Origin: Enhydrobacter aerosaccus
Lineage (GTDB): Bacteria > Pseudomonadota > Alphaproteobacteria > Reyranellales > Reyranellaceae
NCBI GenBank assembly: GCA_903915535.1
Contig: CAIWTJ010000096.1
Span: 1-64,000 of the forward strand
Direction of reading: 5' to 3'
DNA: 64,000 bases
In this document: positions 43,573-50,863 of the stretch, piece after piece
Layout of the letters: each line of letters starts with the position of its first letter
Position numbering within the stretch: position 1 is the stretch's first letter
Position numbers and translations under genes: made by a program
The notes under the pieces: model-generated
The model's input: the letters and a program-made list of their open reading frames with translations, nothing else
Told to the model about the DNA's origin: nothing
Databases searched by the model: none

Positions 43573-45593
43573 TCAGAATGCCTTCGCGACGGTCAATCGA
43601 AACGCGAGGGGCTCGACGGGATGGAAGTGGGTGTCGTTCACCGCCGCCGCCTCGCCCTGGAGCTGCGACTGGTAGTAATAGGTGATCTGGTCGGCCTGCG
43701 TGTTCAGCAGATTGAGCACGTCGAGTGTGACCTTGATACCCGACTCGAAGCTGTAGCCCGCGCGCGCGTTGAACAGGGACGTTGCGCCGGAATAGACGCT
43801 GCCGTCCTCGATCAACGGGCGCGGGCCGAAATAGCGCCAGCGCAGCGCAGCGCACCGAACCAGCCGAGCTCCCCGCCGAGCGTGATGCCCGCGGACGCTA
43901 CCCATGCCGGCGCCTCGGGGATAAAGGAGCCGATCGGATTGTCCGCGTCCTTGAAGCGCGCCTGCGTGTAGGCCACGGCGCCGTCGAAGGTCGCCCACGA
44001 AACCGGGCGATAGCGGTTGGTCCATTCGACACCCAGCCGCCGGCTTGCCCGGTTGGGGGACGTATCTCCCGCGTCGCCACCGAACACCAGCTCGCTGTCG
44101 AATTCGAGCACGAACAACGCCACGCTCGAGTCCAATCCCCTGATGATCTGCGTGCGGGCACCGACTTCCGCGCCGCGCGACTGCACCAGCAGCGGCGCGC
44201 CCTGGCTGAGGCCGCGCACGTCGTTGGAGTGAAAGCCCATGCCGGCGTTCACATAGAACTCGGTCCTGGCGAACGGGCCGAACACCAGCCCGGCCTTGGG
44301 GTTGGGCATGAACGCCGTCGAAGCCGCTGCATTGCCCGGCTGGTCGGACGCATCGGTCGCCCAGAAAAGATCACCGCGCAAACCGACGGTCGAGCGCAGC
44401 CACTCCGTCCACTTGATTTTCTCCTGCATGTAGACGCTGACGCTCGTCTCCTCGACATGGTCCGTGCGGATCGTGCCCACCGGCACGCGCTGCACCGTGT
44501 TGAACAGGCCAAGATCGATCGAGTCGTGGCGCACCTGCAAGCCCACGACGTTCTCGACGTCCAGGCCGGCCAGCGCATGGAACGTCGTGTGGCTGGCGTT
44601 CAATCCATAGAGGGTGCGTTTGTCGCTCTGCTGGAACTGGTCGCCGTTCACCGGATCGTTCATGAAATAGGTGAAGTTGTTGAACAGGTTCAGGGTCGAA
44701 TGGACGAGGTACGCCTCGACCCGGTCGGCGCTCCGCTCGTCCTTCCGGCTCCACCGCGCCGACAGCGAATAGCGCTGCGTGTCGCCCGCGTCGCTGGGAT
44801 CGAGCGTGCCGAAGCGATTGACGAGGCCCGCATCGACGGCGCGCATGGCGATGTGGTTCGTGGCGTGCCACGTGTTCGCGTAGGCCATGCCGGTGATTGC
44901 AAGGCCGGTGTCCTCGGTGCCTTCGCTGTAGCGCAGCACGCCGTTGTATTTGCGCACGCCGTCGGGCACGTCCCACGGCCCGTTGTAGCGTTCGATCTCT
45001 GCCGCAGCCAAAAGCGAGCCACTCCCGAACAGCGTCGAACCGGCCGCCAGCCCGCGCCAGTAGCCGAAACTGCCGCCGGTCGCGGAGACCAGGTTCTTTT
45101 CCAGCCGATCGGCATAGGCAATGTGCACCGCGCCCGCGGAGGAGAAGTCGCCCTCGTCGGCCCAGTACGGTCCCTTCCGCACCAGCAGATTGTCGACCAG
45201 CTCGGGGATCATGAAGTTGAGGTCGGAATAGCCCTGCCCGTGCGCATGCGAGCGCGCGTTGATCGGCATACCGTCGAGCCAGATGCCGATATCGGTGCCG
45301 TGATCGAGATTGAAGCCGCGCAGGAAATATTGGTTGGCTTTGCCCTCGCCCGAATGCTGCGTGACGATCAATCCGGGCACGGCTTCCAGGATTTCGCCCG
45401 GCCGCGTCACCGGCCGCGTGTTCAAGGTCTCGCCGGAAATGCGCTGCTCCGAGGCCGCATCCGTCGGCCGCGATTCGAGATCGACCGGCGCGGTCACCGT
45501 GACCGTCGGCAGGACCGCCGACGCGCCGGTCTGTCCGAACGCAGGCCCCGCGACCGCGAGCAGGCCAAGCCAGAGAGCACGATGCGTATGCAT
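43573..45593 (-). pseudogene. TonB-dependent receptor (nickel-locus), frameshifted near the 3' end
   Basis: ORF 43812-45593 carries plug and barrel; the C-terminal barrel strands (WRYFGPRPLIEDGSVYSGATSLFNARAGYSF...LAFRLTVAKAF) are in the 43573-44025 frame; shift at (AGCGC)3, 43839-43853. Confidence 0.85.
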
Positions 45594-45613
45594 TTTTCAC
45601 AAATAATGCATAC
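45586..45613. promoter_or_regulatory. NikR-type operator, GTATGC-N16-GCATAC (9-bp arms gtatgcatt/aatgcatac)
   Basis: Perfect 9-bp inverted repeat with NikR-like 6-N16-6 spacing between divergent TonB receptor and NiCoT genes, next to nikR. Confidence 0.8.
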
Positions 45614-45650
45614 ACCGTGCCACTCAGCAACTGCTACGATCCCCCCGCAT

Positions 45651-46586
45651 ATGCGTACGCGTCTCATCATGCTGTTTGGCCTGCTGATCGCCGCGAACCT
45701 CGCGGCCTGGGGTGCGGCGCTCATAGTGTTTCATCAGCAGCCGCTGCTGCTGGGCACGGCCCTGCTGGCGTGGGGCTTCGGCCTGCGCCATGCGGTCGAT
45801 GCCGATCACATCGCGGCGATCGACAATGTGACGCGCAAGCTGCGCCAGGAGGGCCGCCGGCCGCTCACCGTCGGACTGTTCTTTGCGCTGGGTCATTCCA
45901 CCGTAGTGTTGCTGGCCGCCGGCGCGGTCGCCGCGACGGCCACCCTGCTCAGCACCAAGTTCGAGGCCTTCCGCGAGATCGGCGGCCTGATTGGCACGAC
46001 GATCTCGGCCTTCTTCCTGTTCGCAATCGCTGCCGTCAATCTCGTGACCTTGCGCGAGACGTGGCGGGCGTGGCGCCACGGCGGCGCGCCCGATCCGACT
46101 TTTGACGGGGGCCTGCTGGCGCGCGTCTGCCGCCCGCTCTTCAGGCTGATCGCGCACCCCTGGCACATGTTCCCGCTCGGCTTCCTGTTCGGCCTGGGCT
46201 TCGACACGGCGACCGAGGTCTCGCTGCTCGGCCTCTCCGCGACCAGCGCGGCGAGCGGGATGTCGCTGTGGGCGATCCTGGTGTTCCCGGCGCTGTTCGC
46301 CGCGGGCATGGCGCTGGTCGACACGGCCGACGGCGTGCTGATGCTGGGCGCCTACGACTGGGCCTTCGTCAGGCCGCGCGCGCGACTTGCCTACAACATC
46401 GTTATCACCGGCGCCTCGGCCGCAGTGGCGATCCTGGTCGGTGGCCTCGAGATCCTGGGAGTCGAGATCGACGGGCTGGGCTTCGCCATCGTGGGATTCT
46501 TCGCCCTCGCCTGGCTCGCGGCGCTGGTGCTCGGTCGACATACGGGACTGGACGAACGCGACGCGCCAGCCGACGCTGCCGACTAA
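45651..46586 (+). CDS. HoxN/NixA-family nickel/cobalt transporter (NiCoT)
   Basis: RHAVDADHIAAIDNVTRKL signature, LGFDTATEVSLLGLS signature. Confidence 0.93.
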   Translation: MRTRLIMLFGLLIAANLAAWGAALIVFHQQPLLLGTALLAWGFGLRHAVDADHIAAIDNVTRKLRQEGRRPLTVGLFFALGHSTVVLLAAGAVAATATLLSTKFEAFREIGGLIGTTISAFFLFAIAAVNLVTLRETWRAWRHGGAPDPTFDGGLLARVCRPLFRLIAHPWHMFPLGFLFGLGFDTATEVSLLGLSATSAASGMSLWAILVFPALFAAGMALVDTADGVLMLGAYDWAFVRPRARLAYNIVITGASAAVAILVGGLEILGVEIDGLGFAIVGFFALAWLAALVLGRHTGLDERDAPADAAD

Positions 46587-46606: not shown

Positions 46607-47092
46607 ATGCAGCGCATCACTCTGTCGATCGACGACGACCTCGCCGAAACGCTCGACCGGCACATGAAGAAGCACCGCTACGCCAGCCGCTCGGAGGCGT
46701 TGCGCGACATCCTGCGCGAAGCCCAGGCGCGCGAGATGCTCGACGACAAGCCCCAAGGAAAGGGAAAGGGCAAGGACGACGGCTTTTGCGTCGCCACGCT
46801 GGCCTACATCTACGACCACGAGACCCGCGATCTCGGCCGGCGGCTGACGCAGGCGCAACACAAGCATCACGACCTGCAGGTCGCGACCCTCCACGTCCAT
46901 CTCGACCACGATTCCTGCCTCGAGGTCTCCATCCTGCGCGGACCGACCCAGGCGGTGCGTGCCCTGGCGGACGACACGATCAGCCAGCGCGGGGTGCGCC
47001 ACGGCCAGCTCCACGTCGTGCCGGCCGCGCTGGAACACGAGAAGCACGGACATGGTGGCGCAGCCCACGGGCATACGCACATCCACGCTTGA
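46607..47092 (+). CDS. nikR: Nickel-responsive regulator NikR
   Basis: RHH domain MQRITLSIDDDLAETLDRHMKKHRYASRSEALRDILRE; ACT-type Ni site HKHHDLQVATLHVHLDHDSCLEVSILRG. Confidence 0.95.
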   Translation: MQRITLSIDDDLAETLDRHMKKHRYASRSEALRDILREAQAREMLDDKPQGKGKGKDDGFCVATLAYIYDHETRDLGRRLTQAQHKHHDLQVATLHVHLDHDSCLEVSILRGPTQAVRALADDTISQRGVRHGQLHVVPAALEHEKHGHGGAAHGHTHIHA

Positions 47093-47123: not shown

Positions 47124-47507
47124 ATGACGACGCAGCGAACAGATTCTCCGATGCAGGCCTTGGGGCTTGCCGTCGCGCTGTTCGCGATCACGCTCAATTT
47201 CCTGCAGCCGATCGCGCACGCCGCGATGATGCGCGATGGCGCGCCATCGGCACTGTGGAGTGTCTTCTGCAATTCGACCGCCGCTGATCCCGACGGCAAA
47301 TCCGGTCCGGCGCCGATGGCGGCCAGTGCGCACGAGTGCTGCCTTGGGCTGGCGCATGTTCCCGCAATTGCCGCGCCGCCAGTTTGCTTCGTCGCACTTC
47401 CGCCGGTGTCGACATACATCGCGCCGCTGGTCGCGTCTGAGCAGCCTACGCCAGTCGGCATTCGCGACGGGCCCTCCCGACCGCGCGGCCCGCCCTCCTT
47501 CGCCTGA
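47124..47507 (+). CDS. Small secreted/membrane protein, possibly DUF2946-like
   Basis: 127 aa, N-terminal hydrophobic segment, AHECCLGLAH motif; next to copper-type genes. Confidence 0.5.
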   Translation: MTTQRTDSPMQALGLAVALFAITLNFLQPIAHAAMMRDGAPSALWSVFCNSTAADPDGKSGPAPMAASAHECCLGLAHVPAIAAPPVCFVALPPVSTYIAPLVASEQPTPVGIRDGPSRPRGPPSFA

Positions 47508-47567
47508 TCGTTAACGCCGCGACGCCCAAACCGCGTCGCTTTCGTTCGTCTGTCGAAGGAATAGTCC

Positions 47568-48107
47568 ATGTTGTCGATTCTCAGGGCGACCATCGTCGCC
47601 TGCGCGGGGCTTGTGCTGATCCCGGCCCTCGCGCGAGCGCACGTCGTCGCCGATCCCAATGAAGGCCCGGCGGGCGGCTACATCCGCACCGCCTTTCGCG
47701 TCACACACGGCTGCAAGGGCTCGCCTACCCTCGCCGTGACGATCCGCATGCCCGAGGGCGTGCTGTCGGCCAAGCCGATGCCCAAACCGGGCTGGACGAT
47801 CGAGATAAAGACCCGTCTGCTCGAAAAGCCCGTCGCCGGCCAGCACGGATTTGCGGTTCGCGACGCGGTCACCGAAGTCACATGGCAAGGCGGACGGCTC
47901 GAGAACAACCAGTTCGACGAATTCGTGGTGATGGTCGGCCTGCCGGATCGGGCGGGCGAAACTCTCTACTTCCCCACCGTCCAGACCTGCGAGAAGGGCG
48001 CGAACAACTGGACCGGCATTCCTGCCGCCGGCCAGAGCGCGCACGACTTGCCCGAGCCCGCGCCCTCCATCACGCTGAAGCCGGCGGCAGGCCACCATGC
48101 GCACTAG
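47568..48107 (+). CDS. YcnI-like DUF1775 protein
   Basis: ARAHVVADPNEGPAGGYIRTAFRVTHGCKGSPTLAVTIRMPEGVLSAKPMPKPGWTIEIK. Confidence 0.9.
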   Translation: MLSILRATIVACAGLVLIPALARAHVVADPNEGPAGGYIRTAFRVTHGCKGSPTLAVTIRMPEGVLSAKPMPKPGWTIEIKTRLLEKPVAGQHGFAVRDAVTEVTWQGGRLENNQFDEFVVMVGLPDRAGETLYFPTVQTCEKGANNWTGIPAAGQSAHDLPEPAPSITLKPAAGHHAH

Positions 48108-50382
48108 ACCGCTAGCGCTCGCCCTGCTTTCGGTCTTGGCCACCGCTGACGCGATCGCCCAGACCTCGCCGTCGGCCGACACGACCCTGCCGCCAGTCAT
48201 CGTGACCGCGCCGGCGCCGGGTCCGCAGGTGCCGCCGGTTTCCCCCGTCGTCGACCGCTATGCCCTGCCGAACACTCGCGAGAGCGTCGACCAGAAGAAG
48301 ATCGAGGACACGACCAATATCGTGGACGTCGAAGACGCCGCCAAATACCTGCCCAGCATCTTCGTGCGAAAGCGCAACTACGGCGACACGCAGCCCACCT
48401 TCCAGACGCGCATGTGGGGCATCAATTCGAGCGCGCGCAATCTCGTCTATGTCGACGACGTCCCGATCTCGGCGCTGATCTCGAACAACAACACCAACGG
48501 CGCCCCGCGCTGGGGCCTGGTCTCGCCGGAGCAGATCAAGGGCCTGGATATGCTCTACGGACCCTTCGCGGCCGAGTATCCCGGCAATTCGATGGGCGGT
48601 GTGCTTCAGATCACCACGCGCCAGCCGGATAAGCTCGAGGTCACGGCCAAGCAGACCGAGGCGTTCCAGACCTTCAGCATGTACAACACGGCGGGCACCT
48701 ATTCGACGTCGAACTCGGCCGCGACGATCGGCGACAAGGTCGGCAAGCTGTCTTTCTTCCTGTCGGCGAACCGGCAGGAAAGCTTCAGCCAGCCGCTGCA
48801 GTTCGTCACCAACACGACCATGGTGGCGGGCGTCAACGGTTTCATCCCCGCCTACAACAAGACCGGCGGCCAGGCCAATGTCGTTGGCGCCGGCGGCCTG
48901 CTGCACACGATCCAGAACAACTACATGGCCAAGGCTTCGGTCGACCTCACCGACTGGCTGACCGCCACCTATCAGGTGAGCTACTGGGAGAACAACCAGA
49001 TCTCGACGGTGCAGAGCTACCTCACCGGCACCAACGGCCAGCCGACCTTCGCCGGCATTTCGGGCTTCGCCAGCAACACGTCGAACTGGACGCAACAGCA
49101 CCTGGCGAACATCCTCTCGCTCAAGACCGATACCGGCGGCAACTGGGACGCGGAGCTGATCGCGACGCGCTACGACTATCTGACGGACATCCAGCGCACG
49201 CCGGCCAACGTGATCGCGGGCAACGGCACCAACTACACGACCAACGGCACCTTCGCGCGCCTCGACGGCACGGGTTGGGACACCGAGGACGCGAAGGCGA
49301 TCTGGCGCCCCACCGGACCGAAGGGCGAGCATGAGGTGAGCTTCGGCGCCCATCACGACAAGTACACGCTCAACAATCCGACCTTCAATGCCCCCAACTG
49401 GCAAGTCGGGCCGGACTACGGCAACGGCACAACATTTTCACAAGGCCTGGGCAAGACCGAGACTTGGGCGTTGTGGGTTCAGGACGCCTACAAGATCACG
49501 CCCGAGATCAAGCTGACGCTCGGTCTGCGCGGCGAGACCTGGAAGGCCTATGGCGGCTTCAATCAGTCGGGCACGGTCTCGGCGTTCCAGCCCGAGCTGT
49601 CGGCCTCCAAACTGTCGCCCAAGGCCACGCTCTCCTGGCAGTTCCTGCCCGAATGGAACGCCAAGCTGTCGTTCGGCGAGGCCAATCGTTTCCCAACCGT
49701 GGCGGAGCTCTACCAGGCGATCACGACCGGCGTGACCGTCACGATTCCCAATCCCAATCTGGTGCCCGAGACCGCCATGTCCTTCGAAGCGGCGATCGAG
49801 CGCCAGGACAAATACTCGCGCGTGCGCCTGTCGCTGTTCGAAGAGGACACGCAGAACGCGATCCTGTCGCAGACCGTCGTGCTCAACAACAGCTTCGTGA
49901 CGTCGTTCCAGAACGTCGACCTCGTCCGCAACCGCGGCTTCGAACTCGTGGGCGAGTTGAAGGACGTGCTGATCCCCGGGCTCAGCCTGTCCAACAGCGT
50001 CACCTACGTCGATTCGAGGATCGTCTCCAACCCTGGCTTCACGAGTGCCGCCGGCACGACCTCCACCGGCATGCGTGCGCCCTACGTCCCCGACTGGCGC
50101 GATACGTTACAGGCGATCTACCGGCCGAACGAGGATCTCTCCCTCTCGGCGTCGGCGCGCTGGCAGGGCAAGATGTACTCGACCCTGGACAACAGCGACC
50201 TGATCAACAGCGTGAACGGCGCCTTCGATCCCTTCTTCCTGGTCGATCTGCATGCGCGCTATCAGTTCATGAACGCCCTGTCGGCCGAGGTCGGTGTCGA
50301 TAACCTGACCGACTTCAAGTACTTCGAGTTCCATCCGTTCCCGGGCAGGACTTTCGTCGCCAGCCTGAAGGCCCGGTTTTGA
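48097..50382 (+). CDS. TonB-dependent receptor
   Basis: Plug domain (LPSIFVRKRNYGDTQPTFQTRMWGINSSARNLVYVDDVPISAL), terminal ...FPGRTFVASLKARF. Confidence 0.92.
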   Translation: MRTRPLALALLSVLATADAIAQTSPSADTTLPPVIVTAPAPGPQVPPVSPVVDRYALPNTRESVDQKKIEDTTNIVDVEDAAKYLPSIFVRKRNYGDTQPTFQTRMWGINSSARNLVYVDDVPISALISNNNTNGAPRWGLVSPEQIKGLDMLYGPFAAEYPGNSMGGVLQITTRQPDKLEVTAKQTEAFQTFSMYNTAGTYSTSNSAATIGDKVGKLSFFLSANRQESFSQPLQFVTNTTMVAGVNGFIPAYNKTGGQANVVGAGGLLHTIQNNYMAKASVDLTDWLTATYQVSYWENNQISTVQSYLTGTNGQPTFAGISGFASNTSNWTQQHLANILSLKTDTGGNWDAELIATRYDYLTDIQRTPANVIAGNGTNYTTNGTFARLDGTGWDTEDAKAIWRPTGPKGEHEVSFGAHHDKYTLNNPTFNAPNWQVGPDYGNGTTFSQGLGKTETWALWVQDAYKITPEIKLTLGLRGETWKAYGGFNQSGTVSAFQPELSASKLSPKATLSWQFLPEWNAKLSFGEANRFPTVAELYQAITTGVTVTIPNPNLVPETAMSFEAAIERQDKYSRVRLSLFEEDTQNAILSQTVVLNNSFVTSFQNVDLVRNRGFELVGELKDVLIPGLSLSNSVTYVDSRIVSNPGFTSAAGTTSTGMRAPYVPDWRDTLQAIYRPNEDLSLSASARWQGKMYSTLDNSDLINSVNGAFDPFFLVDLHARYQFMNALSAEVGVDNLTDFKYFEFHPFPGRTFVASLKARF

Positions 50383-50392
50383 GGAGATCGAC

Positions 50393-50863
50393 ATGAAATC
50401 CGTTCGCCTGTCTCTGGGCCTTCTTCTCTGTCTGCTTCCGGGCCTCGCCGTGGCGGACGACTACAAGCTCGGCCAGCTCGAGATCAGCCAGCCGTGGGCG
50501 CGCGCCACCGCTCCCACGGCGCCCGCGGGCGGCGGCTTTCTCACGATCGCCAACCGGGGCACGGCGACGGATCGGCTGATCGCCGTACGCACATCGGTCG
50601 CCGAACAGGCGCAGATTCACGAGATGAAGATGGACGGCAACGTGATGCGCATGCGCGAACTCGAGCACGGCCTCGAAATTCCGGCGGGCGCCACCGTGAC
50701 CCTGGCACCCGGCGGCTTTCACCTGATGCTGATGGGCCTCAAGAAGCCCCTCACCAAGGACACGCGCGTGCCGCTCACCCTGGTGTTCGAGAAGGCAGGC
50801 TCGATCGACGTCGAACTGGCCATCGAAGCCATGGGCGCGACCTCGCGCGCCCATGGCATGTGA
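50393..50863 (+). CDS. PCuAC-family periplasmic copper chaperone
   Basis: IHEMKMDGNVMRMRELEHGLEIPAGATVTLAPGGFHLMLMGLKKPL (H-x-M ... H-x-M). Confidence 0.92.
   Translation: MKSVRLSLGLLLCLLPGLAVADDYKLGQLEISQPWARATAPTAPAGGGFLTIANRGTATDRLIAVRTSVAEQAQIHEMKMDGNVMRMRELEHGLEIPAGATVTLAPGGFHLMLMGLKKPLTKDTRVPLTLVFEKAGSIDVELAIEAMGATSRAHGM

Follow-up and report, generated by a model that had tools for sequence, protein, structure and literature searches.

What controls nickel import at this locus, and how might one of the controlled genes be expressed from within its own control site? In Enhydrobacter aerosaccus (family Reyranellaceae), a gene for a TonB-dependent receptor and a gene for a NiCoT nickel/cobalt permease diverge from a 28-bp palindrome, GTATGCATTTTTCACAAATAATGCATAC, with perfect 9-bp arms (45586-45613 of the 64,000-nucleotide stretch of DNA analysed here, the window), and the gene of the nickel-responsive repressor NikR begins 20 bp after that of the permease (Table 1). 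Sequence comparison suggests that the palindrome is very probably a NikR-binding site that shuts off nickel uptake.

The genes lie where the original prediction had placed them, and their identities were obtained by Pfam and NCBIfam. NikR contains both the ribbon-helix-helix (PF01402) and the NikR_C (PF08753) domains, aligns end to end with the structure of E. coli NikR (match 1.1e-38), and scores under the cutoff of TIGR02793 (159.9 vs 175.45). It keeps four nickel-ligand residues, H85, H96, H98 and C104, which we take to be the counterparts of the E. coli nickel ligands H76, H87, H89 and C95. NiCoT permeases, of the NicO family, are recognized by an HX4DH motif in transmembrane helix 2; the permease here has this motif, within RHAVDADHI from residue 46 on, and is slightly under the cutoff of TIGR00802 (325.4 vs 333.05). 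The reading frame of the receptor is shifted near 43841-43846, at a short GCGCA-type repeat, the remaining ~99 amino acids being in another frame down to 43573. Receptors of relatives are open throughout (as compared with an intact relative), and the frameshift is either a sequencing or assembly error or a recent lesion. The nearest solved structures to the receptor are distant (BtuB), and its predicted regulation and gene neighbourhood point to nickel as a possible substrate. Downstream of nikR, on the same strand, is a copper-type group (47124-50863) of DUF2946, DUF1775, a second TonB-dependent receptor and PCu(A)C, before which we found no NikR-like site. Related loci put the genome within Reyranella or close to it. 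It carries urease and has no match to a [NiFe] hydrogenase; urease matches are present in 75 of 75 relatives and therefore do not explain the distribution of nikR.

Table 1. Features of the receptor-NiCoT-nikR locus, in window positions.
Feature	Position	Strand	Evidence or remark
Predicted NikR operator, GTATGCATT-N10-AATGCATAC	45586..45613	.	Unique in genome; arms conserved; nikR-restricted (75 genomes)
Receptor-side half-site, ATGCATAC	45586..45593	-	Holds start codon ATG (45591-45593) and His-Thr codons; RTGCATAC in frame, 20/20 loci
Second half-site, ATGCATAC	45606..45613	+	NiCoT/nikR side; arm identity 96-97% between species
Putative -10 region of the receptor promoter	45600..45606	-	Inside operator centre; AT-rich operator columns 8-14, receptor orientation
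Putative -35 element of the receptor promoter, TTGCTG	45625..45630	-	TTG kept 11-12 nt outside operator, most of 20 loci
TonB-dependent receptor, N-terminal 593 aa (plug, most of barrel)	43812..45593	-	Pfam Plug PF07715, TonB_dep_Rec_b-barrel PF00593
NiCoT nickel/cobalt permease	45651..46586	+	PF03824 1.3e-78, TIGR00802; motif RHAVDADHI
nikR, nickel-responsive repressor	46607..47092	+	NF002815 180.9 bits (cutoff 83); PF08753 NikR_C

The palindrome is exactly as predicted, and a chance origin was rejected on the following evidence. Dinucleotide shuffles of the window gave zero matches to the arms, even when 3 mismatches were allowed, and GTATG-N18-CATAC occurs only once in the entire 5.8-Mb genome. 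The next-best genome matches to GTATGCA-N14-TGCATAC are three, each with 2 mismatches, and the two of them that we inspected are both intragenic. A weight matrix from which the window and three near relatives had been left out gave the window site a score of 42.6, whereas 5.8 Mb of random sequence with equal base composition reached at most 17.3. We also rejected the idea that the regulon extends further in this genome: a second site is absent, and the three two-mismatch matches score far below real sites. As had been claimed, the dyad, 28 bp overall, has the half-site spacing of the E. coli nikABCDE operator (GTATGA-N16-TCATAC; PMC7055735), and its half-site GTATGC agrees with GTATGA at 5 of 6 bases. 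The one differing base does not disqualify the site, because NikR half-sites vary from clade to clade (PMC545781).

Comparison of 75 genomes of the family refined the conserved unit to GTATGCAY-N12-RTGCATAC, in which the outer 7 bp hardly vary, whereas positions 8-9 of the arms do. GTATGCA-N14-TGCATAC (with at most 1 mismatch) was found in 20 of the 26 genomes that have nikR and in 0 of the 49 that do not, and the reversed pattern, used as a control, had 0 matches. The Fisher value for this co-occurrence (2.9e-13) ignores the kinship of the genomes and overstates independence, because the 20 loci share ancestry. By matrix score, one of the 20 genomes, G010, probably contains a chance match. 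Between receptor and nikR, G033, which is not among the 20, carries a site with two mismatches; dropping the former and adding the latter again gives 20 credible site genomes, which are exactly the genomes with receptor plus nikR. In three genomes that have the receptor and in which nikR was undetected (some of these assemblies are fragmented), the fetched receptor loci lack the site. Across the 20 aligned loci, pairwise identity is 96-97% in the 7-bp arms, 47% in the centre and 39-44% in the flanks. We took three matches as chance: those with 1 mismatch in contig 1 of G010 and contig 75 of G008, both of low score, and an exact match in G057 contig 72 (L085), which is GC-rich and within a predicted ORF.

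The site is located between receptor and nikR or between receptor and NiCoT-nikR, and mostly 28-39 bp separate it from nikR or NiCoT. In G065 it lies upstream of NiCoT-nikR, and in G064 upstream of a NikA/B/C-like ABC operon with the receptor not adjacent; these placements indicate that the site follows NikR control and is not a mere inherited intergenic region. In G017 (L063 138-1526), nikR follows a histidine-containing membrane protein, for which no NCBIfam match at 1e-20 was found and which may resemble a PepSY-type protein; receptor and operator are on another contig. Counting against NikR control, five nikR-positive genomes with nikR intact lack a good site, although they lack the receptor as well. 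The receptor-less G010 (L060 5385-5412) and G046 (L080 6390-6417) have, upstream of nikR where the operator would normally be, a degenerate GTATCC...GGCATAC that may be a decayed operator. In G025, G036 and G066 (L064, L068 and L078) a NikA-like ABC operon comes after nikR; the receptor is missing, as is any GTATGCA operator that could be recognised, and NikR of these genomes may therefore bind an altered site. The GTATGCA half-site is not shared by NikR loci from other Alphaproteobacteria. Near nikR of G116, from a different alphaproteobacterial family, there is a perfect GTATGAA-N13-TTCATAC (L101, oriented +534 from the nikR start), which resembles the E. coli half-site more than the Reyranella half-site does, and another alphaproteobacterial NikR locus has a near match, also closer to E. 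coli.

The palindrome was expected to overlap the receptor ATG, and this overlap was found to hold throughout the clade. The receptor-side RTGCATAC shares the reading frame of the receptor in 20 of 20 loci; it encodes (M/V)-H-T, or this with one residue changed, ahead of a signal peptide. The operator consensus specifies a purine as the first base of the start codon, which accordingly is ATG in 12 genomes and GTG in 8, differing from species to species. In the window the ATG is preceded at 6 nt by an in-frame TGA, and the frame offers no further start before codon 33; in G037 a stop lies at -6 and codons 2-35 hold zero other starts; G009 and G041 likewise have a stop at most 6 nt upstream. In several loci, the window included, the half-site start is the only usable one. 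A start further in, which the original prediction had offered as an alternative, is disfavoured, since the start within the operator is kept in all 20 loci and alternatives are often unusable. More generally, the operator could be right and the receptor start elsewhere, at a downstream codon or at the ATG of the upstream half-site, making the half-site start incidental. Every RTGCATAC contains RTG by construction, and the upstream ATG, 18 nt away, is in frame and open in most loci. However, the conserved frame leading into a signal peptide, the stops described above, and the two receptor homologues without operator, which appear to begin differently (MSST... and MNCG...), argue against this possibility, and we consider it improbable.

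The TTG of the putative -35 element is conserved regardless of which gene lies past it (nikR, NiCoT or DUF2946), and lies about 18 bp from the AT-rich operator centre, a spacing that would place the transcription start at or next to the start codon. No Shine-Dalgarno sequence fits in that space. The operator would then lie over the -10 region and the start point, with RTGCATAC supplying the start codon, which, together with the lack of a Shine-Dalgarno sequence, points to a receptor mRNA that is probably leaderless. Such a model is reasonable, given that spacing and that leaderless mRNAs occur in other Alphaproteobacteria, where they account for 9.6% of coding sequences in Caulobacter (PMC4117421) and 7% of mRNAs in Methylorubrum (PMC9320726). 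As in those mRNAs, the proposed start codon is at or near the 5' end and has no Shine-Dalgarno sequence; unlike in them, it falls within a repressor half-site conserved across species. A canonical sigma-70 promoter scan found nothing, so it is the cross-species columns that define the putative receptor promoter, and on the NiCoT-nikR side the promoter elements that we sought were not recognisable. The original prediction had repression of the receptor acting at its translation start; the operator does cover the start codon, but the likely block is to initiation of transcription rather than of translation. On balance, we favour the view that the Reyranella NikR half-site has become fixed as the initiation codon of a leaderless receptor mRNA, with NikR, RNA polymerase and the ribosome all reading the same RTGCATAC, the polymerase as its start point and the ribosome as fMet-His-Thr.

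Could the palindrome belong to some other metal regulator (a Zur/Fur-like protein or another repressor) and lie beside nikR by chance? The cluster continues with copper-type genes (DUF2946, DUF1775 and PCuAC), and in G017 and G065 receptor and site adjoin DUF2946 genes, away from nikR. In addition, the genomes that contain the site are those in which receptor and nikR occur together, so its distribution does not track nikR alone. Yet the site is missing from every nikR-negative genome, the three receptor loci among them included, its spacing and 5 of 6 half-site bases are those of the E. coli NikR operator, and its second target type is a NikA-like operon, all of which makes another regulator very unlikely. 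The proposal of a NikR operator between receptor and NiCoT is in turn supported by the co-occurrence with nikR, by targets that are nickel genes (receptor, nikR, NiCoT and, in G064, the NikABC-like operon), and by the absence of the site at nikR-negative receptor loci. An RNA hairpin controlling translation or termination, into which the window copy can fold (9-bp stem, 10-nt loop, -8.6 kcal/mol), was rejected as the main function and is scarcely credible, because the repeat is equally palindromic on both strands and serves two divergent genes, most relatives lose inner arm pairs, the outer arms are fixed in sequence rather than covarying, and the leaderless model leaves the upstream arm out of the receptor mRNA.

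We therefore return to NikR as the regulator. Very likely the palindrome serves as operator for NikR, whose gene lies 1 kb away, in bidirectional repression, with the receptor start codon in a half-site and a probably leaderless receptor mRNA. When cytoplasmic nickel is plentiful, a Ni-NikR tetramer would bind both GTATGCA half-sites, which are separated by about two turns of the helix. The bound repressor would cover, for the divergent receptor, the core promoter with its -10 region and start point and, in the other direction, the region of the NiCoT-nikR promoter. Repression would thus be transcriptional on both sides, a single bidirectional switch that would turn off nickel import across the outer and inner membranes together, and nikR too (autoregulation). 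When the receptor is expressed, the half-site would supply its start codon and first residues, M-H-T.

This predicted operator resembles that of E. coli (PMC7055735) in its 28-bp dyad, half-site spacing, 5 of 6 half-site bases and nickel-import targets. It differs from it by a C for A as the sixth base, a fixed A at position 7, its bidirectional placement and the receptor start codon inside a half-site. H. pylori NikR controls TonB-dependent receptors (FecA3 and FrpB4) and the NiCoT-type NixA, the same target types as predicted here; its consensus, however, is TRTTA-N15-TAWTA (PMC5385501), and an operator-embedded start codon is not reported in the available portions of PMC5385501, PMC11247825 and PMC7055735. 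Several further TonB-dependent nickel receptors are listed in PMC11247825. The delta-proteobacterial NikR sites, GTGTTAC-[N13/14]-GTAACAC, are likewise 27-28 bp inverted repeats with a clade-specific half-site, found by comparative genomics, and differ in half-site sequence and in their targets (nikMNQO) (PMC545781). NikR control of NiCoT was predicted earlier (PMC2667541). Our search, largely of non-subscription literature and without the main NikR regulon studies, found no published description of the GTATGCA motif. As far as the searched literature goes, the GTATGCA consensus and its regulon in Reyranella, and the conserved operator-embedded start codon, are new.

The analysis provides, for a genus that has received little study, a concrete predicted NikR regulon and its clade-specific consensus. 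It nominates the TonB-dependent receptor as a nickel receptor, and would tie nickel import across the outer and inner membranes to one bidirectional operator. The 20 genomes in which bases of the operator are also those of the start codon may serve as a natural series for the trade-off between recognition by a repressor and initiation of translation.
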